DNA from: Chrysoperla carnea
Taxonomy: Eukaryota > Arthropoda > Insecta > Neuroptera > Chrysopidae
Assembly (NCBI RefSeq): GCF_905475395.1
Contig: NC_058340.1
Span: 211,501-275,500, forward strand
DNA length: 64,000 bases
Direction: 5' to 3'
The position numbers and the translations under genes were made by a program. The notes under the pieces are model-generated. The model did no database searches. It was not told the DNA's origin and worked only from the letters and a program-made list of their open reading frames with translations. Below are positions 27,864-64,000 of the stretch, piece by piece (the first letter of the stretch is position 1; every line of letters begins with the position of its first letter).

Positions 27864-28236
27864 AATAGGTTTTTATAATTTTGGAATAAGGAATAAAAGT
27901 TGTTTTAATTTTATCTGAAAAATATTTCAAGTAATTTGTATAAAATTATTGCAAAGCGCAACAAGTAGTTGTAATTGAAAATGTAAGTTTTTAAAAATAA
28001 AAGTTGTAAATTTTATTAATTCATAAAATTACAAAGATTAAAACTATATAGTCGATTTCAGTTAGTTTGGAATATTCATATATTTCGATTAGTTTGGAAT
28101 TAATTTAGTTTTGGAATATGAAATTTATTTTTGTTAGTTGAGTTTAGTGAAAGTTTAATAAGTTTAATGGATTAAAAATATTTTGCGGTAGACCCACAGA
28201 AAAACATTTTCAATGGTTTTACCATTATGACGTCAT

Positions 28237-35686: not shown

Positions 35687-35789
35687 AAACAGATTCGCTC
35701 CGATTTGGATAAAAATCATTTTCTAGAGTGATTTCAACCTGGAAAATACAAAAATCGTGTTCATTTGACGATTCGATGCTCAGTTTCCA
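35687..35789 (-). repeat. Inverted half-unit at the left boundary of the satellite array
   Basis: AACAGATTCGCTCCGATTTG, then GATAAAAATCATTTTCTAGA, then TCAACCTGGAAAATAC and TTCATTTGACGATTCGATGC are the reverse complement of the right part of a standard monomer. The copy differs from the array consensus at several positions, for example GAGTGATTT in place of GACTAATTT. It switches at about 35790 to the forward array. Confidence 0.88.
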
Positions 35790-38700
35790 GAAAAAATTCG
35801 AAAAATCGAAAGTAATTTTATGCCTCCAATTTCGCCCGAACTTTGTATAACAGGTAATTTTGAGCCAAAAAATACAAAAATCATATTCATTTGATGATTC
35901 GATTATTAGTTTTTGAGAAAATTGCACTTTTCGTTAAATTTTTGCCGATATTTTGGAAACTGAGCATCGAATCGTCAAATGAACACGATTTTCGTATTTT
36001 CCAGGTTGAAATTAGTCTAGAAAATGATTTTTATCCAAATCGGAGCGAATCTGTTGACTCGATTTTTTTAATTTTCTGAGGCCGACCCCCCCTTTGAAAA
36101 AATTCGAAAAATCGAAAGTAATTTTATGTCTCCAATTTCGCCCGAACTTTGTATAACAGGTAATTTTGAGCCAAAAAATACAAAAATCATATTCATTTGA
36201 TGATTCGATTATTAGTTTTTGAGAAAATTGCACTTTTCGTTAAATTTTTGCCGATATTTTGGAAACTGAGCATCGAATCGTCAAATGAACACGATTTTCG
36301 TATTTTCCAGGTTGAAATTAGTCTAGAAAATGATTTTTATCCAAATCGGAGCGAATCTGTTGACTCGATTTTTTTAATTTTCTGAGGCCGACCCCCCCTT
36401 TGAAAAAATTCGAAAAATCGAAAGTAATTTTATGTCTCCAATTTCGCCCGAACTTTGTATAACAGGTAATTTTGAGCCAAAAAATACAAAAATCATATTC
36501 ATTTGATGATTCGATTATTAGTTTTTGAGAAAATTGCACTTTTCGTTAAATTTTTGCCGATATTTTGGAAACTGAGCATCGAATCGTCAAATGAACACGA
36601 TTTTCGTATTTTCCAGGTTGAAATTAGTCTAGAAAATGATTTTTATCCAAATCGGAGCGAATCTGTTGACTCGATTTTTTTAATTTTCTGAGGCCGACCC
36701 CCCCTTTGAAAAAATTCGAAAAATCGAAAGTAATTTTATGTCTCCAATTTCGCCCGAACTTTGTATAACAGGTAATTTTGAGCCAAAAAATACAAAAATC
36801 ATATTCATTTGATGATTCGATTATTAGTTTTTGAGAAAATTGCACTTTTCGTTAAATTTTTGCCGATATTTTGGAAACTGAGCATCGAATCGTCAAATGA
36901 ACACGATTTTCGTATTTTCCAGGTTGAAATTAGTCTAGAAAATGATTTTTATCCAAATCGGAGCGAATCTGTTGACTCGATTTTTTTAATTTTCTGAGGC
37001 CGACCCCCCCTTTGAAAAAATTCGAAAAATCGAAAGTAATTTTATGCCTCCAATTTCGCCCGAACTTTGTATAACAGGTAATTTTGAGCCAAAAAATACA
37101 AAAATCATATTCATTTGATGATTCGATTATTAGTTTTTGAGAAAATTGCACTTTTCGTTAAATTTTTGCCGATATTTTGGAAACTGAGCATCGAATCGTC
37201 AAATGAACACGATTTTCGTATTTTCCAGGTTGAAATTAGTCTAGAAAATGATTTTTATCCAAATCGGAGCGAATCTGTTGACTCGATTTTTTTAATTTTC
37301 TGAGGCCGACCCCCCCTTTGAAAAAATTCGAAAAATCGAAAGTAATTTTATGCCTCCAATTTCGCCCGAACTTTGTATAACAGGTAATTTTGAGCCAAAA
37401 AATACAAAAATCATATTCATTTGATGATTCGATTATTAGTTTTTGAGAAAATTGCACTTTTCGTTAAATTTTTGCCGATATTTTGGAAACTGAGCATCGA
37501 ATCGTCAAATGAACACGATTTTCGTATTTTCCAGGTTGAAATTAGTCTAGAAAATGATTTTTATCCAAATCGGAGCGAATCTGTTGACTCGATTTTTTTA
37601 ATTTTCTGAGGCCGACCCCCCCTTTGAAAAAATTCGAAAAATCGAAAGTAATTTTATGCCTCCAATTTCGCCCGAACTTTGTATAACAGGTAATTTTGAG
37701 CCAAAAAATACAAAAATCATATTCATTTGATGATTCGATTATTAGTTTTTGAGAAAATTGCACTTTTCGTTAAATTTTTGCCGATATTTTGGAAACTGAG
37801 CATCGAATCGTCAAATGAACACGATTTTCGTATTTTCCAGGTTGAAATTAGTCTAGAAAATGATTTTTATCCAAATCGGAGCGAATCTGTTGACTCGATT
37901 TTTTTAATTTTCTGAGGCCGACCCCCCCTTTGAAAAAATTCGAAAAATCGAAAGTAATTTTATGCCTCCAATTTCGCCCGAACTTTGTATAACAGGTAAT
38001 TTTGAGCCAAAAAATAAAAAAATCATATTCATTTGATGATTCGATTATTAGTTTTTGAGAAAATTGCACTTTTCGTTAAATTTTTGCCGATATTTTGGAA
38101 ACTGAGCATCGAATCGTCAAATGAACACGATTTTCGTATTTTCCAGGTTGAAATTAGTCTAGAAAATGATTTTTATCCAAATCGGAGCGAATCTGTTGAC
38201 TCGATTTTTTTAATTTTCTGAGGCCGATCCCCCCTTTGAAAAAATTCGAAAAATCGAAAGTAATTTTATGCCTCCAATTTCGCCCGAACTTTGTATAACA
38301 GGTAATTTTGAGCCAAAAAATACAAAAATCATATTCATTTGATGATTCGATTATTAGTTTTTGAGAAAATTGCACTTTTCGTTAAATTTTTGCCGATATT
38401 TTGGAAACTGAGCATCGAATCGTCAAATGAACACGATTTTCGTATTTTCCAGGTTGAAATTAGTCTAGAAAATGATTTTTATCCAAATCGGAGCGAATCT
38501 GTTGACTCGATTTTTTTAATTTTCTGAGGCCGACCCCCCCTTTGAAAAAATTCGAAAAATCGAAAGTAATTTTATGCCTCCAATTTCGCCCGAACTTTGT
38601 ATAACAGGTAATTTTGAGCCAAAAAATACAAAAATCATATTCATTTGATGATTCGATTATTAGTTTTTGAGAAAATTGCACTTTTCGTTAAATTTTTGCC

Positions 38701-41700
38701 GATATTTTGGAAACTGAGCATCGAATCGTCAAATGAACACGATTTTCGTATTTTCCAGGTTGAAATTAGTCTAGAAAATGATTTTTATCCAAATCGGAGC
38801 GAATCTGTTGACTCGATTTTTTTAATTTTCTGAGGCCGACCCCCCCTTTGAAAAAATTCGAAAAATCGAAAGTAATTTTATGCCTCCAATTTCGCCCGAA
38901 CTTTGTATAACAGGTAATTTTGAGCCAAAAAATACAAAAATCATATTCATTTGATGATTCGATTATTAGTTTTTGAGAAAATTGCACTTTTCGTTAAATT
39001 TTTGCCGATATTTTGGAAACTGAGCATCGAATCGTCAAATGAACACGATTTTCGTATTTTCCAGGTTGAAATTAGTCTAGAAAATGATTTTTATCCAAAT
39101 CGGAGCGAATCTGTTGACTCGATTTTTTTAATTTTCTGAGGCCGACCCCCCCTTTGAAAAAATTCGAAAAATCGAAAGTAATTTTATGCCTCCAATTTCG
39201 CCCGAACTTTGTATAACAGGTAATTTTGAGCCAAAAAATACAAAAATCATATTCATTTGATGATTCGATTATTAGTTTTTGAGAAAATTGCACTTTTCGT
39301 TAAATTTTTGCCGATATTTTGGAAACTGAGCATCGAATCGTCAAATGAACACGATTTTCGTATTTTCCAGGTTGAAATTAGTCTAGAAAATGATTTTTAT
39401 CCAAATCGGAGCGAATCTGTTGACTCGATTTTTTTAATTTTCTGAGGCCGACCCCCCCTTTGAAAAAATTCGAAAAATCGAAAGTAATTTTATGCCTCCA
39501 ATTTCGCCCGAACTTTGTATAACAGGTAATTTTGAGCCAAAAAATACAAAAATCATATTCATTTGATGATTCGATTATTAGTTTTTGAGAAAATTGCACT
39601 TTTCGTTAAATTTTTGCCGATATTTTGGAAACTGAGCATCGAATCGTCAAATGAACACGATTTTCGTATTTTCCAGGTTGAAATTAGTCTAGAAAATGAT
39701 TTTTATCCAAATCGGAGCGAATCTGTTGACTCGATTTTTTTAATTTTCTGAGGCCGACCCCCCCTTTGAAAAAATTCGAAAAATCGAAAGTAATTTTATG
39801 CCTCCAATTTCGCCCGAACTTTGTATAACAGGTAATTTTGAGCCAAAAAATACAAAAATCATATTCATTTGATGATTCGATTATTAGTTTTTGAGAAAAT
39901 TGCACTTTTCGTTAAATTTTTGCCGATATTTTGGAAACTGAGCATCGAATCGTCAAATGAACACGATTTTCGTATTTTCCAGGTTGAAATTAGTCTAGAA
40001 AATGATTTTTATCCAAATCGGAGCGAATCTGTTGACTCGATTTTTTTAATTTTCTGAGGCCGACCCCCCCTTTGAAAAAATTCGAAAAATCGAAAGTAAT
40101 TTTATGCCTCCAATTTCGCCCGAACTTTGTATAACAGGTAATTTTGAGCCAAAAAATACAAAAATCATATTCATTTGATGATTCGATTATTAGTTTTTGA
40201 GAAAATTGCACTTTTCGTTAAATTTTTGCCGATATTTTGGAAACTGAGCATCGAATCGTCAAATGAACACGATTTTCGTATTTTCCAGGTTGAAATTAGT
40301 CTAGAAAATGATTTTTATCCAAATCGGAGCGAATCTGTTGACTCGATTTTTTTAATTTTCTGAGGCCGACCCCCCCTTTGAAAAAATTCGAAAAATCGAA
40401 AGTAATTTTATGTCTCCAATTTCGCCCGAACTTTGTATAACAGGTAATTTTGAGCCAAAAAATACAAAAATCATATTCATTTGATGATTCGATTATTAGT
40501 TTTTGAGAAAATTGCACTTTTCGTTAAATTTTTGCCGATATTTTGGAAACTGAGCATCGAATCGTCAAATGAACACGATTTTCGTATTTTCCAGGTTGAA
40601 ATTAGTCTAGAAAATGATTTTTATCCAAATCGGAGCGAATCTGTTGACTCGATTTTTTTAATTTTCTGAGGCCGACCCCCCCTTTGAAAAAATTCGAAAA
40701 ATCGAAAGTAATTTTATGTCTCCAATTTCGCCCGAACTTTGTATAACAGGTAATTTTGAGCCAAAAAATACAAAAATCATATTCATTTGATGATTCGATT
40801 ATTAGTTTTTGAGAAAATTGCACTTTTCGTTAAATTTTTGCCGATATTTTGGAAACTGAGCATCGAATCGTCAAATGAACACGATTTTCGTATTTTCCAG
40901 GTTGAAATTAGTCTAGAAAATGATTTTTATCCAAATCGGAGCGAATCTGTTGACTCGATTTTTTTAATTTTCTGAGGCCGACCCCCCCTTTGAAAAAATT
41001 CGAAAAATCGAAAGTAATTTTATGTCTCCAATTTCGCCCGAACTTTGTATAACAGGTAATTTTGAGCCAAAAAATACAAAAATCATATTCATTTGATGAT
41101 TCGATTATTAGTTTTTGAGAAAATTGCACTTTTCGTTAAATTTTTGCCGATATTTTGGAAACTGAGCATCGAATCGTCAAATGAACACGATTTTCGTATT
41201 TTCCAGGTTGAAATTAGTCTAGAAAATGATTTTTATCCAAATCGGAGCGAATCTGTTGACTCGATTTTTTTAATTTTCTGAGGCCGACCCCCCCTTTGAA
41301 AAAATTCGAAAAATCGAAAGTAATTTTATGCCTCCAATTTCGCCCGAACTTTGTATAACAGGTAATTTTGAGCCAAAAAATACAAAAATCATATTCATTT
41401 GATGATTCGATTATTAGTTTTTGAGAAAATTGCACTTTTCGTTAAATTTTTGCCGATATTTTGGAAACTGAGCATCGAATCGTCAAATGAACACGATTTT
41501 CGTATTTTCCAGGTTGAAATTAGTCTAGAAAATGATTTTTATCCAAATCGGAGCGAATCTGTTGACTCGATTTTTTTAATTTTCTGAGGCCGACCCCCCC
41601 TTTGAAAAAATTCGAAAAATCGAAAGTAATTTTATGCCTCCAATTTCGCCCGAACTTTGTATAACAGGTAATTTTGAGCCAAAAAATACAAAAATCATAT

Positions 41701-43920
41701 TCATTTGATGATTCGATTATTAGTTTTTGAGAAAATTGCACTTTTCGTTAAATTTTTGCCGATATTTTGGAAACTGAGCATCGAATCGTCAAATGAACAC
41801 GATTTTCGTATTTTCCAGGTTGAAATTAGTCTAGAAAATGATTTTTATCCAAATCGGAGCGAATCTGTTGACTCGATTTTTTTAATTTTCTGAGGCCGAC
41901 CCCCCCTTTGAAAAAATTCGAAAAATCGAAAGTAATTTTATGCCTCCAATTTCGCCCGAACTTTGTATAAAAGGTAATTTTGAGCCAAAAAATAAAAAAA
42001 TCATATTCATTTGATGATTCGATTATTAGTTTTTGAGAAAATTGCACTTTTCGTTAAATTTTTGCCGATATTTTGGAAACTGAGCATCGAATCGTCAAAT
42101 GAACACGATTTTCGTATTTTCCAGGTTGAAATTAGTCTAGAAAATGATTTTTATCCAAATCGGAGCGAATCTGTTGACTCGATTTTTTTAATTTTCTGAG
42201 GCCGACCCCCCCTTTGAAAAAATTCGAAAAATCGAAAGTAATTTTATGCCTCCAATTTCGCCCGAACTTTGTATAACAGGTAATTTTGAGCCAAAAAATA
42301 CAAAAATCATATTCATTTGATGATTCGATTATTAGTTTTTGAGAAAATTGCACTTTTCGTTAAATTTTTGCCGATATTTTGGAAACTGAGCATCGAATCG
42401 TCAAATGAACACGATTTTCGTATTTTCCAGGTTGAAATTAGTCTAGAAAATGATTTTTATCCAAATCGGAGCGAATCTGTTGACTCGATTTTTTTAATTT
42501 TCTGAGGCCGACCCCCCCTTTGAAAAAATTCGAAAAATCGAAAGTAATTTTATGCCTCCAATTTCGCCCGAACTTTGTATAACAGGTAATTTTGAGCCAA
42601 AAAATACAAAAATCATATTCATTTGATGATTCGATTATTAGTTTTTGAGAAAATTGCACTTTTCGTTAAATTTTTGCCGATATTTTGGAAACTGAGCATC
42701 GAATCGTCAAATGAACACGATTTTCGTATTTTCCAGGTTGAAATTAGTCTAGAAAATGATTTTTATCCAAATCGGAGCGAATCTGTTGACTCGATTTTTT
42801 TAATTTTCTGAGGCCGACCCCCCCTTTGAAAAAATTCGAAAAATCGAAAGTAATTTTATGCCTCCAATTTCGCCCGAACTTTGTATAACAGGTAATTTTG
42901 AGCCAAAAAATACAAAAATCATATTCATTTGATGATTCGATTATTAGTTTTTGAGAAAATTGCACTTTTCGTTAAATTTTTGCCGATATTTTGGAAACTG
43001 AGCATCGAATCGTCAAATGAACACGATTTTCGTATTTTCCAGGTTGAAATTAGTCTAGAAAATGATTTTTATCCAAATCGGAGCGAATCTGTTGACTCGA
43101 TTTTTTTAATTTTCTGAGGCCGACCCCCCCTTTGAAAAAATTCGAAAAATCGAAAGTAATTTTATGCCTCCAATTTCGCCCGAACTTTGTATAACAGGTA
43201 ATTTTGAGCCAAAAAATACAAAAATCATATTCATTTGATGATTCGATTATTAGTTTTTGAGAAAATTGCACTTTTCGTTAAATTTTTGCCGATATTTTGG
43301 AAACTGAGCATCGAATCGTCAAATGAACACGATTTTCGTATTTTCCAGGTTGAAATTAGTCTAGAAAATGATTTTTATCCAAATCGGAGCGAATCTGTTG
43401 ACTCGATTTTTTTAATTTTCTGAGGCCGACCCCCCCTTTGAAAAAATTCGAAAAATCGAAAGTAATTTTATGCCTCCAATTTCGCCCGAACTTTGTATAA
43501 CAGGTAATTTTGAGCCAAAAAATACAAAAATCATATTCATTTGATGATTCGATTATTAGTTTTTGAGAAAATTGCACTTTTCGTTAAATTTTTGCCGATA
43601 TTTTGGAAACTGAGCATCGAATCGTCAAATGAACACGATTTTCGTATTTTCCAGGTTGAAATTAGTCTAGAAAATGATTTTTATCCAAATCGGAGCGAAT
43701 CTGTTGACTCGATTTTTTTAATTTTCTGAGGCCGACCCCCCCTTTGAAAAAATTCGAAAAATCGAAAGTAATTTTATGCCTCCAATTTCGCCCGAACTTT
43801 GTATAACAGGTAATTTTGAGCCAAAAAATAAAAAAATCATATTCATTTGATGATTCGATTATTAGTTTTTGAGAAAATTGCACTTTTCGTTAAATTTTTG
43901 CCGATATTTTGGAAACTGAG

Positions 43921-43970
43921 CATCGAATCGTCAAATGAATATGATTTTTGTATTTTCCAGGTTGAAATTA
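43921..43970. repeat. Satellite unit with right arm changed to the left-arm sequence
   Basis: In this unit the right-arm stretch reads AATGAATATGATTTTTGTAT rather than AATGAACACGATTTTCGTAT, with changes at 43940, 43942 and 43949. The new sequence is exactly complementary to the left-arm consensus ATACAAAAATCATATTCATT. Confidence 0.85.
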
Positions 43971-46900
43971 GTCTAGAAAATGATTTTTATCCAAATCGGA
44001 GCGAATCTGTTGACTCGATTTTTTTAATTTTCTGAGGCCGACCCCCCCTTTGAAAAAATTCGAAAAATCGAAAGTAATTTTATGCCTCCAATTTCGCCCG
44101 AACTTTGTATAACAGGTAATTTTGAGCCAAAAAATACAAAAATCATATTCATTTGATGATTCGATTATTAGTTTTTGAGAAAATTGCACTTTTCGTTAAA
44201 TTTTTGCCGATATTTTGGAAACTGAGCATCGAATCGTCAAATGAACACGATTTTCGTATTTTCCAGGTTGAAATTAGTCTAGAAAATGATTTTTATCCAA
44301 ATCGGAGCGAATCTGTTGACTCGATTTTTTTAATTTTCTGAGGCCGACCCCCCCTTTGAAAAAATTCGAAAAATCGAAAGTAATTTTATGCCTCCAATTT
44401 CGCCCGAACTTTGTATAACAGGTAATTTTGAGCCAAAAAATACAAAAATCATATTCATTTGATGATTCGATTATTAGTTTTTGAGAAAATTGCACTTTTC
44501 GTTAAATTTTTGCCGATATTTTGGAAACTGAGCATCGAATCGTCAAATGAACACGATTTTCGTATTTTCCAGGTTGAAATTAGTCTAGAAAATGATTTTT
44601 ATCCAAATCGGAGCGAATCTGTTGACTCGATTTTTTTAATTTTCTGAGGCCGACCCCCCCTTTGAAAAAATTCGAAAAATCGAAAGTAATTTTATGCCTC
44701 CAATTTCGCCCGAACTTTGTATAACAGGTAATTTTGAGCCAAAAAATACAAAAATCATATTCATTTGATGATTCGATTATTAGTTTTTGAGAAAATTGCA
44801 CTTTTCGTTAAATTTTTGCCGATATTTTGGAAACTGAGCATCGAATCGTCAAATGAACACGATTTTCGTATTTTCCAGGTTGAAATTAGTCTAGAAAATG
44901 ATTTTTATCCAAATCGGAGCGAATCTGTTGACTCGATTTTTTTAATTTTCTGAGGCCGACCCCCCCTTTGAAAAAATTCGAAAAATCGAAAGTAATTTTA
45001 TGCCTCCAATTTCGCCCGAACTTTGTATAACAGGTAATTTTGAGCCAAAAAATACAAAAATCATATTCATTTGATGATTCGATTATTAGTTTTTGAGAAA
45101 ATTGCACTTTTCGTTAAATTTTTGCCGATATTTTGGAAACTGAGCATCGAATCGTCAAATGAACACGATTTTCGTATTTTCCAGGTTGAAATTAGTCTAG
45201 AAAATGATTTTTATCCAAATCGGAGCGAATCTGTTGACTCGATTTTTTTAATTTTCTGAGGCCGACCCCCCCTTTGAAAAAATTCGAAAAATCGAAAGTA
45301 ATTTTATGTCTCCAATTTCGCCCGAACTTTGTATAACAGGTAATTTTGAGCCAAAAAATACAAAAATCATATTCATTTGATGATTCGATTATTAGTTTTT
45401 GAGAAAATTGCACTTTTCGTTAAATTTTTGCCGATATTTTGGAAACTGAGCATCGAATCGTCAAATGAACACGATTTTCGTATTTTCCAGGTTGAAATTA
45501 GTCTAGAAAATGATTTTTATCCAAATCGGAGCGAATCTGTTGACTCGATTTTTTTAATTTTCTGAGGCCGACCCCCCCTTTGAAAAAATTCGAAAAATCG
45601 AAAGTAATTTTATGTCTCCAATTTCGCCCGAACTTTGTATAACAGGTAATTTTGAGCCAAAAAATACAAAAATCATATTCATTTGATGATTCGATTATTA
45701 GTTTTTGAGAAAATTGCACTTTTCGTTAAATTTTTGCCGATATTTTGGAAACTGAGCATCGAATCGTCAAATGAACACGATTTTCGTATTTTCCAGGTTG
45801 AAATTAGTCTAGAAAATGATTTTTATCCAAATCGGAGCGAATCTGTTGACTCGATTTTTTTAATTTTCTGAGGCCGACCCCCCTTTGAAAAAATTCGAAA
45901 AATCGAAAGTAATTTTATGCCTCCAATTTCGCCCGAACTTTGTATAACAGGTAATTTTGAGCCAAAAAATACAAAAATCATATTCATTTGATGATTCGAT
46001 TATTAGTTTTTGAGAAAATTGCACTTTTCGTTAAATTTTTGCCGATATTTTGGAAACTGAGCATCGAATCGTCAAATGAACACGATTTTCGTATTTTCCA
46101 GGTTGAAATTAGTCTAGAAAATGATTTTTATCCAAATCGGAGCGAATCTGTTGACTCGATTTTTTTAATTTTCTGAGGCCGGCCCCCCCTTTGAAAAAAT
46201 TCGAAAAATCGAAAGTAATTTTATGTCTCCAATTTCGCCCGAACTTTGTATAACAGGTAATTTTGAGCCAAAAAATACAAAAATCATATTCATTTGATGA
46301 TTCGATTATTAGTTTTTGAGAAAATTGCACTTTTCGTTAAATTTTTGCCGATATTTTGGAAACTGAGCATCGAATCGTCAAATGAACACGATTTTCGTAT
46401 TTTCCAGGTTGAAATTAGTCTAGAAAATGATTTTTATCCAAATCGGAGCGAATCTGTTGACTCGATTTTTTTAATTTTCTGAGGCCGACCCCCCCTTTGA
46501 AAAAATTCGAAAAATCGAAAGTAATTTTATGCCTCCAATTTCGCCCGAACTTTGTATAACAGGTAATTTTGAGCCAAAAAATACAAAAATCATATTCATT
46601 TGATGATTCGATTATTAGTTTTTGAGAAAATTGCACTTTTCGTTAAATTTTTGCCGATATTTTGGAAACTGAGCATCGAATCGTCAAATGAACACGATTT
46701 TCGTATTTTCCAGGTTGAAATTAGTCTAGAAAATGATTTTTATCCAAATCGGAGCGAATCTGTTGACTCGATTTTTTTAATTTTCTGAGACCGACCCCCC
46801 CTTTGAAAAAATTCGAAAAATCGAAAGTAATTTTATGCCTCCAATTTCGCCCGAACTTTGTATAACAGGTAATTTTGAGCCAAAAAATACAAAAATCATA

Positions 46901-49900
46901 TTCATTTGATGATTCGATTATTAGTTTTTGAGAAAATTGCACTTTTCGTTAAATTTTTGCCGATATTTTGGAAACTGAGCATCGAATCGTCAAATGAACA
47001 CGATTTTCGTATTTTCCAGGTTGAAATTAGTCTAGAAAATGATTTTTATCCAAATCGGAGCGAATCTGTTGACTCGATTTTTTTAATTTTCTGAGGCCGA
47101 CCCCCCCTTTGAAAAAATTCGAAAAATCGAAAGTAATTTTATGCCTCCAATTTCGCCCGAACTTTGTATAACAGGTAATTTTGAGCCAAAAAATACAAAA
47201 ATCATATTCATTTGATGATTCGATTATTAGTTTTTGAGAAAATTGCACTTTTCGTTAAATTTTTGCCGATATTTTGGAAACTGAGCATCGAATCGTCAAA
47301 TGAACACGATTTTCGTATTTTCCAGGTTGAAATTAGTCTAGAAAATGATTTTTATCCAAATCGGAGCGAATCTGTTGACTCGATTTTTTTAATTTTCTGA
47401 GGCCGACCCCCCCTTTGAAAAAATTCGAAAAATCGAAAGTAATTTTATGCCTCCAATTTCGCCCGAACTTTGTATAACAGGTAATTTTGAGCCAAAAAAT
47501 ACAAAAATCATATTCATTTGATGATTCGATTATTAGTTTTTGAGAAAATTGCACTTTTCGTTAAATTTTTGCCGATATTTTGGAAACTGAGCATCGAATC
47601 GTAAAATGAACACGATTTTCGTATTTTCCAGGTTGAAATTAGTCTAGAAAATGATTTTTATCCAAATCGGAGCGAATCTGTTGACTCGATTTTTTTAATT
47701 TTCTGAGGCCGACCCCCCCTTTGAAAAAATTCGAAAAATCGAAAGTAATTTTATGCCTCCAATTTCGCCCGAACTTTGTATAACAGGTAATTTTGAGCCA
47801 AAAAATACAAAAATCATATTCATTTGATGATTCGATTATTAGTTTTTGAGAAAATTGCACTTTTCGTTAAATTTTTGCCGATATTTTGGAAACTGAGCAT
47901 CGAATCGTCAAATGAACACGATTTTCGTATTTTCCAGGTTGAAATTAGTCTAGAAAATGATTTTTATCCAAATCGGAGCGAATCTGTTGACTCGATTTTT
48001 TTAATTTTCTGAGGCCGACCCCCCCTTTGAAAAAAATTCGAAAAATCGAAAGTAATTTTATGCCTCCAATTTCGCCCGAACTTTGTATAACAGGTAATTT
48101 TGAGCCAAAAAATACAAAAATCATATTCATTTGATGATTCGATTATTAGTTTTTGAGAAAATTGCACTTTTCGTTAAATTTTTGCCGATATTTTGGAAAC
48201 TGAGCATCGAATCGTCAAATGAACACGATTTTCGTATTTTCCAGGTTGAAATTAGTCTAGAAAATGATTTTTATCCAAATCGGAGCGAATCTGTTGACTC
48301 GATTTTTTTAATTTTCTGAGGCCGACCCCCCCTTTGAAAAAATTCGAAAAATCGAAAGTAATTTTATGCCTCCAATTTCGCCCGAACTTTGTATAACAGG
48401 TAATTTTGAGCCAAAAAAATACAAAAATCATATTCATTTGATGATTCGATTATTAGTTTTTGAGAAAATTGCACTTTTCGTTAAATTTTTGCCGATATTT
48501 TGGAAACTGAGCATCGAATCGTAAAATGAACACGATTTTCGTATTTTCCAGGTTGAAATTAGTCTAGAAAATGATTTTTATCCAAATCGGAGCGAATCTG
48601 TTGACTCGATTTTTTTAATTTTCTGAGGCCGACCCCCCCTTTGAAAAAATTCGAAAAATCGAAAGTAATTTTATGCCTCCAATTTCGCCCGAACTTTGTA
48701 TAACAGGTAATTTTGAGCCAAAAAATACAAAAATCATATTCATTTGATGATTCGATTATTAGTTTTTGAGAAAATTGCACTTTTCGTTAAATTTTTGCCG
48801 ATATTTTGGAAACTGAGCATCGAATCGTCAAATGAACACGATTTTCGTATTTTCCAGGTTGAAATTAGTCTAGAAAATGATTTTTATCCAAATCGGAGCG
48901 AATCTGTTGACTCGATTTTTTTAATTTTCTGAGGCCGACCCCCCCTTTGAAAAAATTCGAAAAATCGAAAGTAATTTTATGCCTCCAATTTCGCCCGAAC
49001 TTTGTATAACAGGTAATTTTGAGCCAAAAAATACAAAAATCATATTCATTTGATGATTCGATTATTAGTTTTTGAGAAAATTGCACTTTTCGTTAAATTT
49101 TTGCCGATATTTTGGAAACTGAGCATCGAATCGTCAAATGAACACGATTTTCGTATTTTCCAGGTTGAAATTAGTCTAGAAAATGATTTTTATCCAAATC
49201 GGAGCGAATCTGTTGACTCGATTTTTTTAATTTTCTGAGGCCGACCCCCCCTTTGAAAAAATTCGAAAAATCGAAAGTAATTTTATGTCTCCAATTTCGC
49301 CCGAACTTTGTATAACAGGTAATTTTGAGCCAAAAAATACAAAAATCATATTCATTTGATGATTCGATTATTAGTTTTTGAGAAAATTGCACTTTTCGTT
49401 AAATTTTTGCCGATATTTTGGAAACTGAGCATCGAATCGTCAAATGAACACGATTTTCGTATTTTCCAGGTTGAAATTAGTCTAGAAAATGATTTTTTAT
49501 CCAAATCGGAGCGAATCTGTTGACTCGATTTTTTTAATTTTCTGAGGCCGACCCCCCCTTTGAAAAAATTCGAAAAATCGAAAGTAATTTTATGCCTCCA
49601 ATTTCGCCCGAACTTTGTATAACAGGTAATTTTGAGCCAAAAAAATACAAAAATCATATTCATTTGATGATTCGATTATTAGTTTTTGAGAAAATTGCAC
49701 TTTTCGTTAAATTTTTGCCGATATTTTGGAAACTGAGCATCGAATCGTCAAATGAACACGATTTTCGTATTTTCCAGGTTGAAATTAGTCTAGAAAATGA
49801 TTTTTATCCAAATCGGAGCGAATCTGTTGACTCGATTTTTTTAATTTTCTGAGGCCGACCCCCCCTTTGAAAAAATTCGAAAAATCGAAAGTAATTTTAT

Positions 49901-51570: not shown

Positions 51571-51610
51571 GAGCATCGAATCATCAAATGAATATGATTT
51601 TTGTATTTTC
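51571..51610. repeat. Second satellite unit with converted right arm
   Basis: Four changes from the consensus (51583, 51593, 51595, 51602) make this right arm perfectly complementary to the left-arm consensus over about 33 nt. The preceding unit (51277) and a unit at 54337 carry only the first of the four changes. Confidence 0.85.
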
Positions 51611-52759
51611 CAGGTTGAAATTAGTCTAGAAAATGATTTTTATCCAAATCGGAGCGAATCTGTTGACTCGATTTTTTTAATTTTCTGAGGCCGACCCCCC
51701 CCTTTGAAAAAATTCGAAAAATCGAAAGTAATTTTATGTCTCCAATTTCGCCCGAACTTTGTATAACAGGTAATTTTGAGCCAAAAAATACAAAAATCAT
51801 ATTCATTTGATGATTCGATTATTAGTTTTTGAGAAAATTGCACTTTTCGTTAAATTTTTGCCGATATTTTGGAAACTGAGCATCGAATCGTCAAATGAAC
51901 ACGATTTTCGTATTTTCCAGGTTGAAATTAGTCTAGAAAATGATTTTTATCCAAATCGGAGCGAATCTGTTGACTCGATTTTTTTAATTTTCTGAGGCCG
52001 ACCCCCCCTTTGAAAAAATTCGAAAAATCGAAAGTAATTTTATGCCTCCAATTTCGCCCGAACTTTGTATAACAGGTAATTTTGAGCCAAAAAATACAAA
52101 AATCATATTCATTTGATGATTCGATTATTAGTTTTTGAGAAAATTGCACTTTTCGTTAAATTTTTGCCGATATTTTGGAAACTGAGCATCGAATCGTCAA
52201 ATGAACACGATTTTCGTATTTTCCAGGTTGAAATTAGTCTAGAAAATGATTTTTATCCAAATCGGAGCGAATCTGTTGACTCGATTTTTTTAATTTTCTG
52301 AGGCCGACCCCCCCTTTGAAAAAATTCGAAAAATCGAAAGTAATTTTATGTCTCCAATTTCGCCCGAACTTTGTATAACAGGTAATTTTGAGCCAAAAAA
52401 TACAAAAATCATATTCATTTGATGATTCGATTATTAGTTTTTGAGAAAATTGCACTTTTCGTTAAATTTTTGCCGATATTTTGGAAACTGAGCATCGAAT
52501 CGTCAAATGAACACGATTTTCGTATTTTCCAGGTTGAAATTAGTCTAGAAAATGATTTTTATCCAAATCGGAGCGAATCTGTTGACTCGATTTTTTTAAT
52601 TTTCTGAGGCCGACCCCCCCTTTGAAAAAATTCGAAAAATCGAAAGTAATTTTATGTCTCCAATTTCGCCCGAACTTTGTATAACAGGTAATTTTGAGCC
52701 AAAAAATACAAAAATCATATTCATTTGATGATTCGATTATTAGTTTTTGAGAAAATTGC

Positions 52760-52785
52760 ACTTTTCGTTTAGATATTTTGGAAAC
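52760..52785. repeat. Satellite unit with a short deletion in the hairpin loop
   Basis: The loop reads CTTTTCGTTTAGATATTTTG, lacking about 9-10 bases that include TTTTTGCCG of the consensus. This is the only multi-base deletion noticed in the array; other length differences are single bases in homopolymers. Confidence 0.8.
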
Positions 52786-55700
52786 TGAGCATCGAATCGT
52801 CAAATGAACACGATTTTCGTATTTTCCAGGTTGAAATTAGTCTAGAAAATGATTTTTTATCCAAATCGGGAGCGAATCTGTTGACTCGATTTTTTTAATT
52901 TTCTGAGGCCGACCCCCCCTTTGAAAAAATTCGAAAAATCGAAAGTAATTTTATGCCTCCAATTTCGCTCCGAACTTTGTATAACAGGTAATTTTGAGCC
53001 AAAAAATACAAAAATCATATTCATTTGATGATTCGATTATTAGTTTTTGAGAAAATTGCACTTTTTCGTTAAATTTTTGCCGATATTTTGGAAACTGAGC
53101 ATCGAATCGTCAAATGAACACGATTTTCGTATTTTCCAGGTTGAAATTAGTCTAGAAAATGATTTTTATCCAAATCGGAGCGAATCTGTTGACTCGATTT
53201 TTTTAATTTTCTGAGGCCGACCCCCCCTTTGAAAAAATTCGAAAAATCGAAAGTAATTTTATGCCTCCAATTTCGCCCGAACTTTGTATAACAGGTAATT
53301 TTGAGCCAAAAAATACAAAAATCATATTCATTTGATGATTCGATTATTAGTTTTTGAGAAAAATTGCACTTTTCGTTAAATTTTTGCCGATATTTTGGAA
53401 ACTGAGCATCGAATCGTCAAATGAACACGATTTTCGTATTTTCCAGGTTGAAATTAGTCTAGAAAATGATTTTTATCCAAATCGGAGCGAATCTGTTGAC
53501 TCGATTTTTTTAATTTTCTGAGGCCGACCCCCCCCTTTGAAAAAATTCGAAAAATCGAAAGTAATTTTATGTCTCCAATTTCGCCCGAACTTTGTATAAC
53601 AGGTAATTTTGAGCCAAAAAATACAAAAATCATATTCATTTGATGATTCGATTATTAGTTTTTGAGAAAATTGCACTTTTCGTTAAATTTTTGCCGATAT
53701 TTTGGAAACTGAGCATCGAATCGTCAAATGAACACGATTTTCGTATTTTCCAGGTTGAAATTAGTCTAGAAAATGATTTTTATCCAAATCGGAGCGAATC
53801 TGTTGACTCGATTTTTTTTAATTTTCTGAGGCCGACCCCCCCTTTGAAAAAATTCGAAAAATCGAAAGTAATTTTATGTCTCCAATTTCGCCCGAACTTT
53901 GTATAACAGGTAATTTTGAGCCAAAAAAATACAAAAATCATATTCATTTGATGATTCGATTATTAGTTTTTGAGAAAATTGCACTTTTCGTTAAATTTTT
54001 GCCGATATTTTGGAAACTGAGCATCGAATCGTCAAATGAACACGATTTTCGTATTTTCCAGGTTGAAATTAGTCTAGAAAATGATTTTTATCCAAATCGG
54101 AGCGAATCTGTTGACTCGATTTTTTTAATTTTCTGAGGCCGACCCCCCCTTTGAAAAAATTCGAAAAATCGAAAGTAATTTTATGCCTCCAATTTCGCCC
54201 GAACTTTGTATAACAGGTAATTTTGAGCCAAAAAATACAAAAATCATATTCATTTGATGATTCGATTATTAGTTTTTGAGAAAATTGCACTTTTCGTTAA
54301 ATTTTTGCCGATATTTTGGAAACTGAGCATCGAATCATCAAATGAACACGATTTTCGTATTTTCCAGGTTGAAATTAGTCTAGAAAATGATTTTTATCCA
54401 AATCGGAGCGAATCTGTTGACTCGATTTTTTTAATTTTCTGAGGCCGACCCCCCCTTTGAAAAAATTCGAAAAATCGAAAGTAATTTTATGTCTCCAATT
54501 TCGCCCGAACTTTGTATAACAGGTAATTTTGAGCCAAAAAATACAAAAATCATATTCATTTGATGATTCGATTATTAGTTTTTGAGAAAATTGCACTTTT
54601 CGTTAAATTTTTGCCGATATTTTGGAAACTGAGCATCGAATCGTCAAATGAACACGATTTTCGTATTTTCCAGGTTGAAATTAGTCTAGAAAATGATTTT
54701 TATCCAAATCGGAGCGAATCTGTTGACTCGATTTTTTTAATTTTCTGAGGCCGACCCCCCCTTTGAAAAAATTCGAAAAATCGAAAGTAATTTTATGCCT
54801 CCAATTTCGCCCGAACTTTGTATAACAGGTAATTTTGAGCCAAAAAATACAAAAATCATATTCATTTGATGATTCGATTATTAGTTTTTGAGAAAATTGC
54901 ACTTTTCGTTAAATTTTTGCCGATATTTTGGAAACTGAGCATCGAATCGTCAAATGAACACGATTTTCGTATTTTCCAGGTTGAAATTAGTCTAGAAAAT
55001 GATTTTTATCCAAATCGGGAGCGAATCTGTTGACTCGATTTTTTTAATTTTCTGAGGCCGACCCCCCCTTTGAAAAAATTCGAAAAATCGAAAGTAATTT
55101 TATGCCTCCAATTTCGCCCGAACTTTGTATAACAGGTAATTTTGAGCCAAAAAATACAAAAATCATATTCATTTGATGATTCGATTATTAGTTTTTGAGA
55201 AAATTGCACTTTTCGTTAAATTTTTGCCGATATTTTGGAAACTGAGCATCGAATCGTCAAATGAACACGATTTTCGTATTTTCCAGGTTGAAATTAGTCT
55301 AGAAAATGATTTTTATCCAATCGGAGCGAATCTGTTGACTCGATTTTTTTAATTTTCTGAGGCCGACCCCCCCTTTGAAAAAATTCGAAAAATCGAAAGT
55401 AATTTTATGTCTCCAATTTCGCCCGAACTTTGTATAACAGGTAATTTTGAGCCAAAAAATACAAAAATCATATTCATTTGATGATTCGATTATTAGTTTT
55501 TGAGAAAATTGCACTTTTCGTTAAATTTTTGCCGATATTTTGGAAACTGAGCATCGAATCGTCAAATGAACACGATTTTCGTATTTTCCAGGTTGAAATT
55601 AGTCTAGAAAATGATTTTTATCCAAATCGGAGCGAATCTGTTGACTCGATTTTTTTAATTTTCTGAGGCCGACCCCCCCTTTGAAAAAATTCGAAAAATC

Positions 55701-58700
55701 GAAAGTAATTTTATGCCTCCAATTTCGCCCGAACTTTGTATAACAGGTAATTTTGAGCCAAAAATACAAAAATCATATTCATTTGATGATTCGATTATTA
55801 GTTTTTGAGAAAATTGCACTTTTCGTTAAATTTTTGCCGATATTTTGGAAACTGAGCATCGAATCGTCAAATGAACACGATTTTCGTATTTTCCAGGTTG
55901 AAATTAGTCTAGAAAATGATTTTTATCCAAATCGGAGCGAATCTGTTGACTCGATTTTTTTAATTTTCTGAGGCCGACCCCCCCTTTGAAAAAATTCGAA
56001 AAATCGAAAGTAATTTTATGCCTCCAATTTCGCCCGAACTTTGTATAACAGGTAATTTTGAGCCAAAAAATACAAAAATCATATTCATTTGATGATTCGA
56101 TTATTAGTTTTTGAGAAAATTGCACTTTTCGTTAAATTTTTTGCCGATATTTTGGAAACTGAGCATCGAATCGTCAAATGAACACGATTTTCGTATTTTC
56201 CAGGTTGAAATTAGTCTAGAAAATGATTTTTATCCAAATCGGAGCGAATCTGTTGACTCGATTTTTTTAATTTTCTGAGGCCGACCCCCCCTTTGAAAAA
56301 ATTCGAAAAATCGAAAGTAATTTTATGCCTCCAATTTCGCCCGAACTTTGTATAACAGGTAATTTTGAGCCAAAAAATACAAAAATCATATTCATTTGAT
56401 GATTCGATTATTAGTTTTTGAGAAAATTGCACTTTTCGTTAAATTTTTGCCGATATTTTGGAAACTGAGCATCGAATCGTCAAATGAACACGATTTTCGT
56501 ATTTTCCAGGTTGAAATTAGTCTAGAAAATGATTTTTATCCAAATCGGAGCGAATCTGTTGACTCGATTTTTTTAATTTTCTGAGGCCGACCCCCCCTTT
56601 GAAAAAATTCGAAAAATCGAAAGTAATTTTATGCCTCCAATTTCGCCCGAACTTTGTATAACAGGTAATTTTGAGCCAAAAAATACAAAAATCATATTCA
56701 TTTGATGATTCGATTATTAGTTTTTGAGAAAATTGCACTTTTCGTTAAATTTTTGCCGATATTTTGGAAACTGAGCATCGAATCGTCAAATGAACACGAT
56801 TTTCGTATTTTCCAGGTTGAAATTAGTCTAGAAAATGATTTTTATCCAAATCGGAGCGAATCTGTTGACTCGATTTTTTTAATTTTCTGAGGCCGACCCC
56901 CCCTTTGAAAAAATTCGAAAAATCGAAAGTAATTTTATGTCTCCAATTTCGCCCGAACTTTGTATAACAGGTAATTTTGAGCCAAAAAATACAAAAATCA
57001 TATTCATTTGATGATTCGATTATTAGTTTTTGAGAAAATTGCACTTTTCGTTAAATTTTTGCCGATATTTTGGAAACTGAGCATCGAATCGTCAAATGAA
57101 CACTATTTTCGTATTTTCCAGGTTGAAATTAGTCTAGAAAATGATTTTTATCCAAATCGGAGCGAATCTGTTGACTCGATTTTTTTAATTTTCTGAGGCC
57201 GACCCCCCCTTTGAAAAAATTCGAAAAATCGAAAGTAATTTTATGTCTCCAATTTCGCCCGAACTTTGTATAACAGGTAATTTTGAGCCAAAAAATACAA
57301 AAATCATATTCATTTGATGATTCGATTATTAGTTTTTGAGAAAATTGCACTTTTCGTTAAATTTTTGCCGATATTTTGGAAACTGAGCATCGAATCGTCA
57401 AATGAACACGATTTTCGTATTTTCCAGGTTGAAATTAGTCTAGAAAATGATTTTTATCCAAATCGGAGCGAATCTGTTGACTCGATTTTTTTAATTTTCT
57501 GAGGCCGACCCCCCCTTTGAAAAAATTCGAAAAATCGAAAGTAATTTTATGCCTCCAATTTCGCCCGAACTTTGTATAACAGGTAATTTTGAGCCAAAAA
57601 ATACAAAAATCATATTCATTTGATGATTCGATTATTAGTTTTTGAGAAAATTGCACTTTTCGTTAAATTTTTGCCGATATTTTGGAAACTGAGCATCGAA
57701 TCGTCAAATGAACACGATTTTCGTATTTTCCAGGTTGAAATTAGTCTAGAAAATGATTTTTATCCAAATCGGAGCGAATCTGTTGACTCGATTTTTTTAA
57801 TTTTCTGAGGCCGACCCCCCCTTTGAAAAAATTCGAAAAATCGAAAGTAATTTTATGCCTCCAATTTCGCCCGAACTTTGTATAACAGGTAATTTTGAGC
57901 CAAAAAATACAAAAATCATATTCATTTGATGATTCGATTATTAGTTTTTGAGAAAATTGCACTTTTCGTTAAATTTTTGCCGATATTTTGGAAACTGAGC
58001 ATCGAATCGTCAAATGAACACGATTTTCGTATTTTCCAGGTTGAAATTAGTCTAGAAAATGATTTTTATCCAAATCGGAGCGAATCTGTTGACTCGATTT
58101 TTTTAATTTTCTGAGGCCGACCCCCCCTTTGAAAAAATTCGAAAAATCGAAAGTAATTTTATGTCTCCAATTTCGCCCGAACTTTGTATAACAGGTAATT
58201 TTGAGCCAAAAAATACAAAAATCATATTCATTTGATGATTCGATTATTAGTTTTTGAGAAAATTGCACTTTTCGTTAAATTTTTGCCGATATTTTGGAAA
58301 CTGAGCATCGAATCGTCAAATGAACACGATTTTCGTATTTTCCAGGTTGAAATTAGTCTAGAAAATGATTTTTATCCAAATCGGAGCGAATCTGTTGACT
58401 CGATTTTTTTAATTTTCTGAGGCCGACCCCCCCTTTGAAAAAATTCGAAAAATCGAAAGTAATTTTAATGCCTCCAATTTCGCCCGAACTTTGTATAACA
58501 GGTAATTTTGAGCCAAAAAATACAAAAATCATATTCATTTGATGATTCGATTATTAGTTTTTGAGAAAATTGCACTTTTCGTTAAATTTTTGCCGATATT
58601 TTGGAAACTGAGCATCGAATCGTCAAATGAACACGATTTTCGTATTTTCCAGGTTGAAATTAGTCTAGAAAATGATTTTTATCCAAATCGGAGCGAATCT

Positions 58701-61700
58701 GTTGACTCGATTTTTTTAATTTTCTGAGGCCGACCCCCCCTTTGAAAAAATTCGAAAAATCGAAAGTAATTTTATGCCTCCAATTTCGCCCGAACTTTGT
58801 ATAACAGGTAATTTTGAGCCAAAAAATACAAAAAATCATATTCATTTGATGATTCGATTATTAGTTTTTGAGAAAATTGCACTTTTCGTTAAATTTTTGC
58901 CGATATTTTGGAAACTGAGCATCGAATCGTCAAATGAACACGATTTTCGTATTTTCCAGGTTGAAATTAGTCTAGAAAATGATTTTTATCCAAATCGGAG
59001 CGAATCTGTTGACTCGATTTTTTTAATTTTCTGAGGCCGACCCCCCCTTTGAAAAAATTCGAAAAATCGAAAGTAATTTTATGTCTCCAATTTCGCCCGA
59101 ACTTTGTATAACAGGTAATTTTGAGCCAAAAAAATACAAAAATCATATTCATTTGATGATTCGATTATTAGTTTTTGAGAAAATTGCACTTTTCGTTAAA
59201 TTTTTGCCGATATTTTGGAAACTGAGCATCGAATCGTCAAATGAACACGATTTTCGTATTTTCCAGGTTGAAATTAGTCTAGAAAATGATTTTTATCCAA
59301 ATCGGAGCGAATCTGTTGACTCGATTTTTTTAATTTTCTGAGGCCGACCCCCCCTTTGAAAAAATTCGAAAAATCGAAAGTAATTTTATGCCTCCAATTT
59401 CGCCCGAACTTTGTATAACAGGTAATTTTGAGCCAAAAAATACAAAAATCATATTCATTTGATGATTCGATATTAGTTTTTGAGAAAATTGCACTTTTCG
59501 TTAAATTTTTGCCGATATTTTGGAAACTGAGCATCGAATCGTCAAATGAACACGATTTTCGTATTTTCCAGGTTGAAATTAGTCTAGAAAATGATTTTTA
59601 TCCAAATCGGAGCGAATCTGTTGACTCGATTTTTTTAATTTTCTGAGGCCGACCCCCCTTTGAAAAAATTCGAAAAATCGAAAGTAATTTTATGCCTCCA
59701 ATTTCGCCCGAACTTTGTATAACAGGTAATTTTGAGCCAAAAAATACAAAAATCATATTCATTTGATGATTCGATTATTAGTTTTTGAGAAAATTGCACT
59801 TTTCGTTAAATTTTTGCCGATATTTTGGAAACTGAGCATCGAATCGTCAAATGAACACGATTTTCGTATTTTCCAGGTTGAAATTAGTCTAGAAAATGAT
59901 TTTTATCCAAATCGGAGCGAATCTGTTGACTCGATTTTTTTAATTTTCTGAGGCCGACCCCCCCTTTGAAAAAATTCGAAAAATCGAAAGTAATTTTATG
60001 CCTCCCAATTCCCCCCGAACTTTGTATAACAGGTAATTTTGAGCCAAAAAATACAAAAAATCATATTCATTTGATGATTCGATTATTAGTTTTTGAGAAA
60101 ATTGCACTTTTCGTTAAATTTTTGCCGATATTTTGGAAACTGAGCATCGAATCGTCAAATGAACACGATTTTCGTATTTTCCAGGTTGAAATTAGTCTAG
60201 AAAATGATTTTTATCCAAATCGGAGCGAATCTGTTGACTCGATTTTTTTAATTTTCTGAGGCCGACCCCCCCTTGAAAAAATTCGAAAAATCGAAAGTAA
60301 TTTTATGCCTCCAATTTCGCCCGAACTTTGTATAACAGGTAATTTTGAGCCAAAAAATACAAAAATCATATTCATTTGATGATTCGATTATTAGTTTTTG
60401 AGAAAATTGCACTTTTCGTTAAATTTTTGCCGATATTTTGGAAACTGAGCATCGAATCGTCAAATGAACACGATTTTCGTATTTTCCAGGTTGAAATTAG
60501 TCTAGAAAATGATTTTTATCCAAATCGGAGCGAATCTGTTGACTCGATTTTTTTAATTTTCTGAGGCCGACCCCCCCTTTGAAAAAATTCGAAAAATCGA
60601 AAGTAATTTTATGTCTCCAATTTCGCCCGAACTTTGTATAACAGGTAATTTTGAGCCAAAAAATACAAAAATCATATTCATTTGATGATTCGATTATTAG
60701 TTTTTGAGAAAATTGCACTTTTCGTTAAATTTTTGCCGATATTTTGGAAACTGAGCATCGAATCGTCAAATGAACACGATTTTCGTATTTTCCAGGTTGA
60801 AATTAGTCTAGAAAATGATTTTTATCCAAATCGGAGCGAATCTGTTGACTCGATTTTTTTAATTTTCTGAGGCCGACCCCCCCTTTGAAAAAATTCGAAA
60901 AATCGAAAGTAATTTTATGTCTCCAATTTCGCCCGAACTTTGTATAACAGGTAATTTTGAGCCAAAAAATACAAAAATCATATTCATTTGATGATTCGAT
61001 TATTAGTTTTTGAGAAAATTGCACTTTTCGTTAAATTTTTGCCGATATTTTGGAAACTGAGCATCGAATCGTCAAATGAACACGATTTTCGTATTTTCCA
61101 GGTTGAAATTAGTCTAGAAAATGATTTTTATCCAAATCGGAGCGAATCTGTTGACTCGATTTTTTTAATTTTCTGAGGCCGACCCCCCCTTTGAAAAAAT
61201 TCGAAAAATCGAAAGTAATTTTATGCCTCCAATTTCGCCCGAACTTTGTATAACAGGTAATTTTGAGCCAAAAAATACAAAAATCATATTCATTTGATGA
61301 TTCGATTATTAGTTTTTGAGAAAATTGCACTTTTCGTTAAATTTTTGCCGATATTTTGGAAACTGAGCATCGAATCGTCAAATGAACACGATTTTCGTAT
61401 TTTCCAGGTTGAAATTAGTCTAGAAAATGATTTTTATCCAAATCGGAGCGAATCTGTTGACTCGATTTTTTTAATTTTCTGAGGCCGACCCCCCCTTTGA
61501 AAAAATTCGAAAAATCGAAAGTAATTTTATGCCTCCAATTTCGCCCGAACTTTGTATAACAGGTAATTTTGAGCCAAAAAATACAAAAATCATATTCATT
61601 TGATGATTCGATTATTAGTTTTTGAGAAAATTGCACTTTTCGTTAAATTTTTGCCGATATTTTGGAAACTGAGCATCGAATCGTCAAATGAACACGATTT

Positions 61701-64000
61701 TCGTATTTTCCAGGTTGAAATTAGTCTAGAAAATGATTTTTATCCAAATCGGAGCGAATCTGTTGACTCGATTTTTTTAATTTTCTGAGGCCGACCCCCC
61801 CCTTTGAAAAAATTCGAAAAATCGAAAGTAATTTTATGTCTCCAATTTCGCCCGAACTTTGTATAACAGGTAATTTTGAGCCAAAAAAATACAAAAATCA
61901 TATTCATTTGATGATTCGATTATTAGTTTTTGAGAAAATTGCACTTTTCGTTAAATTTTTGCCGATATTTTGGAAACTGAGCATCGAATCGTCAAATGAA
62001 CACGATTTTCGTATTTTCCAGGTTGAAATTAGTCTAGAAAATGATTTTTATCCAAATCGGAGCGAATCTGTTGACTCGATTTTTTTAATTTTCTGAGGCC
62101 GACCCCCCCCTTTGAAAAAATTCGAAAAATCGAAAGTAATTTTATGCCTCCAATTTCGCCCGAACTTTGTATAACAGGTAATTTTGAGCCAAAAAATACA
62201 AAAATCATATTCATTTGATGATTCGATTATTAGTTTTTGAGAAAATTGCACTTTTCGTTAAATTTTTGCCGATATTTTGGAAACTGAGCATCGAATCGTC
62301 AAATGAACACGATTTTCGTATTTTCCAGGTTGAAATTAGTCTAGAAAATGATTTTTATCCAAATCGGAGCGAATCTGTTGCCTCGATTTTTTTAATTTTC
62401 TGAGGCCGCCCCCCCCTTTGAAAAAATTCGAAAAATCGAAAGTAATTTTATGTCTCCAATTTCGCCCGAACTTTGTATAACAGGTAATTTTGAGCCAAAA
62501 AATACAAAAATCATATTCATTTGATGATTCGATTATTAGTTTTTGAGAAAATTGCACTTTTCGTTAAATTTTTGCCGATATTTTGGAAACTGAGCATCGA
62601 ATCGTCAAATGAACACGATTTTCGTATTTTCCAGGTTGAAATTAGTCTAGAAAATGATTTTTATCCAAATCGGAGCGAATCTGTTGACTCGATTTTTTTA
62701 ATTTTCTGAGGCCGACCCCCCCTTTGAAAAAATTCGAAAAATCGAAAGTAATTTTATGTCTCCAATTTCGCCCGAACTTTGTATAACAGGTAATTTTGAG
62801 CCAAAAAATACAAAAATCATATTCATTTGATGATTCGATTATTAGTTTTTGAGAAAATTGCACTTTTCGTTAAATTTTTGCCGATATTTTGGAAACTGAG
62901 CATCGAATCGTCAAATGAACACGATTTTCGTATTTTCCAGGTTGAAATTAGTCTAGAAAATGATTTTTATCCAAATCGGAGCGAATCTGTTGACTCGATT
63001 TTTTTAATTTTCTGAGGCCGACCCCCCCTTTGAAAAAATTCGAAAAATCGAAAGTAATTTTATGTCTCCAATTTCGCCCGAACTTTGTATAACAGGTAAT
63101 TTTGAGCCAAAAAATACAAAAATCATATTCATTTGATGATTCGATTATTAGTTTTTGAGAAAATTGCACTTTTCGTTAAATTTTTGCCGATATTTTGGAA
63201 ACTGAGCATCGAATCGTCAAATGAACACGATTTTCGTATTTTCCAGGTTGAAATTAGTCTAGAAAATGATTTTTATCCAAATCGGAGCGAATCTGTTGAC
63301 TCGATTTTTTTAATTTTCTGAGGCCGACCCCCCCTTTGAAAAAATTCGAAAAATCGAAAGTAATTTTATGTCTCCAATTTCGCCCGAACTTTGTATAACA
63401 GGTAATTTTGAGCCAAAAAATACAAAAATCATATTCATTTGATGATTCGATTATTAGTTTTTGAGAAAATTGCACTTTTCGTTAAATTTTTGCCGATATT
63501 TTGGAAACTGAGCATCGAATCGTCAAATGAACACGATTTTCGTATTTTCCAGGTTGAAATTAGTCTAGAAAATGATTTTTATCCAAATCGGAGCGAATCT
63601 GTTGACTCGATTTTTTTAATTTTCTGAGGCCGACCCCCCCTTTGAAAAAATTCGAAAAATCGAAAGTAATTTTATGCCTCCAATTTCGCCCGAACTTTGT
63701 ATAACAGGTAATTTTGAGCCAAAAAATACAAAAATCATATTCATTTGATGATTCGATTATTAGTTTTTGAGAAAATTGCACTTTTCGTTAAATTTTTGCC
63801 GATATTTTGGAAACTGAGCATCGAATCGTCAAATGAACACGATTTTCGTATTTTCCAGGTTGAAATTAGTCTAGAAAATGATTTTTATCCAAATCGGAGC
63901 GAATCTGTTGACTCGATTTTTTTAATTTTCTGAGGCCGACCCCCCCTTTGAAAAAATTCGAAAAATCGAAAGTAATTTTATGTCTCCAATTTCGCCCGAA

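Follow-up and report, generated by a model that had tools for sequence, protein, structure and literature searches.

In Tribolium brevicornis, the 1061-bp major satellite contains inverted segments of ~470 bp (Mravinac et al., 2005, as cited in excerpts of PMC8122249 and PMC13081366). The TmSat2 satellite of Tribolium madens has a 704-bp monomer with arms of ~300 bp, and lies interspersed with a second satellite across multi-megabase stretches (PMC13081366, in excerpt), whilst the 385-bp satellite of Trichogramma brassicae carries ~80-bp inverted repeats within its monomer (Landais et al., 2000, as cited in the same two excerpted sources). A further system relevant here is Cg_HINE of Crassostrea gigas, a non-autonomous Helentron in which a microsatellite lies beside satellite-like central repeats, some of them related to a classical satellite (PMC7492417, in excerpt).

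We analyzed a 64,000-nt stretch of the Chrysoperla carnea genome (C4:211501-275500, hereafter the window). The assembly comprises 559 Mb in 337 contigs, with C1 to C6 measuring 140.0, 100.7, 94.1, 77.5, 76.4, and 38.6 Mb, respectively. Satellites arise and are replaced fast, and their origin is rarely traceable. The 306-bp satellite found in the window is probably a non-coding satellite located near chromosome ends that originated when a unit related to that of a dispersed element formed an inverted dimer, which was then amplified and homogenized. Related units occur in three states in this one genome (in the dispersed element, as a half-unit at the array edge, and as the amplified inverted pair), so that related species could be used to test how a scattered repeat became a satellite.

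A long and highly uniform satellite array

TRF identified a 306-bp tandem array at window positions 35790-64000, with 92.2 copies and 99% matches. Cutting the array at a fixed anchor, with up to three substitutions allowed, gave 92 complete monomers, of which 70 were 306 bp and 14 were 307 bp long, the remaining 8 ranging from 299 to 308 bp. The array and the parts of its monomer are listed here by window position.

35790..64000, plus strand, extending beyond the window to ~C4:285480: 306-bp satellite array (TRF, monomer alignment)
36096..36401, plus strand: example monomer, unit A forward and then unit B reversed
36175..36218, plus strand: A arm, best 44-nt core (monomer 80-123; ungapped inverted match 37/44, pair counts)
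36219..36262, no strand: loop of 44 nt (monomer 124-167), with 10 of the 15 fixed differences between satellite subfamilies
36263..36306, minus strand: B arm, best 44-nt core (monomer 168-211; ungapped inverted match 37/44, pair counts)

This is a long tandem array of near-identical repeats: pairwise identity among the 92 monomers had a mean of 0.994 and a minimum of 0.939. There were 33 distinct sequences, and the two commonest aligned sequences accounted for 38 and 21 monomers. A first-pass annotation of this DNA had proposed recent amplification or strong homogenization, and both the mean identity and the dominance of two sequences agree with that proposal. Its estimate of about 92 near-identical copies was right for complete monomers in the window but is only a lower bound, because the array continues past the window end to a 200-N assembly gap at ~C4:285480, giving a length of at least 38 kb. 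No higher-order periodicity was seen in the window array, where mean inter-repeat identity was flat (0.9929-0.9941) over lags 1-24. Pattern scans with the unit core gave no matches in viral and prokaryotic contig collections, a result that says little given the nature of such collections, and three sequence strings looked for in literature text found no match.

Two homologous units face each other within the monomer

Each monomer contains homologous subunits in opposite orientation. The two 61-nt arms described by the first-pass annotation (36160-36220 and 36261-36321, about 74% matching) were confirmed, with 45 of 61 positions matching in opposite orientation; the 40-nt loop given with them measures 44 nt when counted from the best core. 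That core, an ungapped inverted match of 37/44 with a 44-nt loop, scored 26.5; among 100 dinucleotide shuffles the mean score was 9.7 and the highest 14.0. Aligning the monomer to its own reverse complement with gaps, a check that had been suggested alongside the initial description, likewise gave a significant inverted match (score 66; mean 27.5 and maximum 53 in 300 shuffles). A longer extension of the inverted match between A and B reaches 58 nt at 78% and leaves 44 nt separating the arms.

As a single strand, the monomer folded better than 100/100 shuffles, with z = -6.1 for RNA and z = -4.1 for DNA, and a C1 monomer gave z = -6.1 when folded as DNA. Folding better than shuffles is what would be expected of any inverted repeat. 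It would also suit a reading in which selection keeps the inverted arms, with cruciforms or hairpins positioning nucleosomes, loading centromere protein or feeding small RNAs. We regard such selection as quite improbable.

Satellite monomers in this genome fall into two subfamilies, one on C4 and C5 and the other on C1 and C2 and on the small contigs C249, C250, C256, and C260; the window subfamily is also found at the start of C5, and the other at the start of C1. Fifteen fixed differences separate them, 10 in the 44-nt loop, 3 at the 88 arm positions and 2 at the 171 positions elsewhere (loop versus all else, Fisher’s exact test p = 2.8e-6). Structural constraint could produce the contrast between arms (3/88) and loop (10/44), but positions belonging to neither arms nor loop differ just as little (2/171), and within the window array arms, loop, and remainder vary alike (0.0022, 0.0032, and 0.0024, respectively, with one common C/T site left out). 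Across five monomers from four contigs, 88.6% of cells pair over the 44 arm pairs and none of these pairs (0/44) has changed on both sides; this is a weak test, as there are five sequences and 36 of the 44 pairs never vary or never pair differently. Rfam returned no family at the gathering score for window positions 28000-38000. The best match to the CENP-B box consensus in the monomer had 2 mismatches; 73 of 300 mononucleotide shuffles did at least as well, and a CENP-B box was dropped as a candidate. Flipping of the loop was also considered as an origin for the differing loops of the two subfamilies, and was dropped on a judgement made by eye.

The functional hairpin or cruciform put forward in the first-pass annotation thus gains no support from compensatory changes, within the limits of that test, and divergence is concentrated in the loop and not in the stem. 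A hairpin could form, and nothing here shows that it is maintained; it would most likely be a by-product of the inverted origin of the monomer. Beyond forming repetitive terminal chromatin, the array probably has no sequence-specific role.

The placed satellite sites lie near contig ends

The first-pass annotation had also proposed a search of the monomer against the whole assembly. Genome searches with satellite queries, in which the best 2 of 782, 5 of 724, and 7 of 537 candidates were scored and very common words were skipped, placed the satellite or its half-units at ten sites on C1-C5. These were C1:1-8053 and C1 at 0.55 and 1.00 Mb, C2 at 0.67 and 1.30 Mb, C3 at 92.7 and 93.4 Mb, C4 at 0.247 Mb, and C5 at 1 and at 0.10 Mb; the satellite was seen on the four small contigs as well. 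None of the 10 chromosome-placed sites is more than 1.41 Mb from a contig end. They are spread over five of the six largest contigs, and among the candidates scored the satellite was not seen on C6. Given the partial scoring and the skipping of very common words, sites away from the ends may be missed. Several placed sites are a few repeats long, that at C1:1.00 Mb being a single half-unit and that at C5:0.10 Mb two half-units.

A terminal or subtelomeric satellite is the likely account of this placement. Centromere identity, which had been raised as one possible significance of the satellite, was not shown: with every placed site near a contig end, the pattern fits a centromere only if the chromosomes are telocentric and the satellite-bearing contig ends are the centromere ends. 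C1 and C5 do begin inside the array, which counts for a centromeric location since assemblies often stop at centromeric satellites. No TTAGG-type tract was present at the eight contig ends read, which would suit centromeric ends and makes a position beside telomeres less certain; the left ends of C2 and C4 consist only of N. Intra-monomer dyads are moreover discussed for (peri)centromeric Tribolium satellites (PMC13081366, in excerpt). Against this, other contig ends carry different satellites: one of 165 bp on C3 (left end), C2 (right end) and C4 (right end), and one of 146 bp, interrupted by (GGTTG)n blocks, at the right end of C3. The window array, for its part, begins ~247 kb inside C4, with the dispersed element ~6 kb away and an open frame with a Sua5/YciO/YrdC domain at a distance of 19.5 kb, and the shortness of several sites also counts against a centromere. 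Taken together, we consider it rather doubtful that the array is centromeric, and prefer a terminal or subtelomeric satellite.

The open frame with the Sua5/YciO/YrdC domain (15571-16278) is presumably the YRDC gene. Another open frame, at 2244-2804 on the minus strand, matches the Sulfotransfer_2 family and contains asparagine runs. A repeat at 23606-24252 has several copies, 92-98% identical, within 50 kb to the right of the C4 array.

A dispersed element carries a relative of the satellite unit

Outside the array, the window holds a solitary relative of the satellite units, S0, which forms part of a dispersed element; a further half-unit stands at the array edge.

28511..29772, plus strand: dispersed element holding S0 (second C4 copy, genome search, 30 copies read, self-match)
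29289..29431, plus strand: S0, solitary unit relative outside the array (blastn, nhmmer)
35688..35789, minus strand: edge half-unit, a unit B oriented oppositely to the B units of the array and abutting the first A unit (similarity to monomer)

The element begins with (ACCCAC)n, followed by an array of CCCAACCTAA type, then by a partial unit and S0, and lastly by a 3' part ending in ATATACAGAT. On the other strand the CCCAACCTAA-type microsatellite reads TTAGGTTGGG, a telomere-like repeat with a 10-bp unit; the telomere repeat of Bombus terrestris, TTAGGTTGGGG (PMC9841428, in excerpt), is one base longer. S0 adjoins this TTAGGTTGGG-type microsatellite, such that a microsatellite stands beside satellite-like units over window positions 28511-29431. 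In a self-match of the non-microsatellite part, the partial unit matched S0 at 79% over 52 bp.

A second copy of the element was found on C4 at ~309 kb, and in a genome search the best 40 of 2049 candidates were 95-100% identical to the window copy. Thirty copies were read, the window copy included; their flanks differ (by eye), and 28 of them have ATATACAGAT at the 3' end, the other 2 having a one-letter variant. Nineteen of these 30 loci were aligned, the other 11 being left out as both ends were not found by simple string matching, and had a mean pairwise identity of 0.947 (minimum 0.718). Beside the window copy there is a 35-nt inverted repeat (29838-29872 and 30074-30108, 94% complementary, 201 nt apart), which could be a small mobile element.

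In blastn searches with the monomer, S0 aligned to unit A over 126 bp (72%, E = 2.5e-13) and to unit B over 75 bp (79%, E = 8.7e-13); a repeat search gave 74% over 97 nt for the latter. The nhmmer E-value for S0 was 1.8e-34, from a model that was itself built including S0. Units A and B and the unit of the dispersed element therefore share ancestry, and A and B form an inverted pair.

The inverted half-unit that the first-pass annotation had noticed at the array boundary is real: positions 35688-35789 match the reverse complement of monomer 165-266 at 97% over 102 bp, and the same half-unit was detected as a 105-nt inverted pair at 96%. Three of the six array edges that we read carry satellite in reverse orientation (blastn E < 1e-3), namely the left edge of the C4 array and, for both of the short C2 arrays, one of their two edges. 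At the same threshold no reversed satellite sequence was found at the C1 edge or at the opposite edge of either C2 array, although one of these C2 edges has a short loop-like stretch, as judged by eye.

The direct match between A and B, the edge half-unit and the relationship of S0 to both units support the earlier suggestion that the monomer arose by head-to-head joining of an older repeat of ~150 bp. Probably an older ~150-bp unit, a relative of which is also carried in the abundant dispersed element, was fused head to head to a diverged sister, and the resulting 306-bp pair was then amplified as one block. Unequal exchange, conversion or break-induced copying could account for the homogenization, and the satellite would have spread between chromosome ends. 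As to the direction of descent, we infer that the dispersed element or its relative came first and the satellite later, although matches of 71-79% among S0, A, and B leave their branching order unsettled.

The reverse direction, in which one unit of an already existing satellite was captured by the dispersed element, is the less likely of the two, though it deserves some weight. The element holds just one full unit and one partial unit, as a capture would leave it, and elements of the Helitron superfamily, in which its membership is a candidate assignment, are described as prone to capturing genomic sequences (PMC7492417, in excerpt). The degree of divergence speaks the other way. A search with S0 alone yielded 1906 candidates, and the best 40 of them show complete identity over 143 bp, whilst S0 matches the satellite units at only 71-79%, which argues against a recent capture. 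Nor is the edge half-unit (79% over 80 nt) any nearer to S0 than is the inner B (79% over 75 bp), so nothing at the array edges points to a closer intermediate. We thus favor the dispersed element or its relative as the older of the two.

Orientation of the sampled copies of the dispersed element depends on chromosome arm

More surprising than the satellite itself is the orientation of the dispersed element, which depends on the chromosome arm in 67 of 71 sampled loci (Fisher’s exact test p = 4.4e-10). In left contig halves 55 of 58 copies lie on the plus strand, and in right halves 12 of 13 lie on the minus strand, meaning that the G-rich strand of the microsatellite runs towards the nearer contig end. 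Sixty-three of the 71 loci are within 12 Mb of a contig end. The 71 distinct loci combine the best 40 of 2049 candidates from the element search with the best 40 of 1906 from the S0 search, full-length, with 9 shared and two partial matches of the element search left out of the orientation count. As these loci are the top scorers among ~2000 candidates, and no hit came from five of the twelve contig halves, a full count is needed before the pattern is relied upon.

If upheld by a full count, arm-dependent orientation needs an explanation tied to chromosome ends. One speculative and on balance unlikely explanation is that the dispersed element is a telomere-directed mobile element, with the TTAGGTTGGG track pointing towards the nearer end and with copies accumulating in the outer regions of the arms in one orientation per arm, and that its unit gave rise to the terminal satellite via an inverted dimer. 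Were this true, a single family would link insertion directed to chromosome ends with the birth of a satellite.

Comparison with known satellites and mobile elements

Given that inversely oriented subunits are known in satellites of Tribolium and Trichogramma, the architecture of the 306-bp satellite is of an already known kind, as far as the excerpted sources describe these systems. Like the major satellite of Tribolium brevicornis, it has a monomer of long inversely oriented subunits that could in principle fold as one dyad; as the latter is described, its inverted segments are ~470 bp, whereas here the strong match covers 44-60 nt between two ~150-bp units. The 385-bp satellite of Trichogramma brassicae, again compared by description, is similar in monomer length and in having internal inverted repeats. 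TmSat2 resembles the present satellite in that its monomer is described as derived wholly from an ancestral unit (~110 bp in TmSat2) with subunits in both orientations (PMC13081366, in excerpt), but here there is one dimeric unit near contig ends in place of multi-megabase intermingled arrays. For the dispersed element the nearest likeness is Cg_HINE, in layout alone, as both place a microsatellite beside satellite-like repeats (PMC7492417, in excerpt); the element described here is set apart from the published description by its telomere-like 10-bp microsatellite and its arm-dependent orientation.
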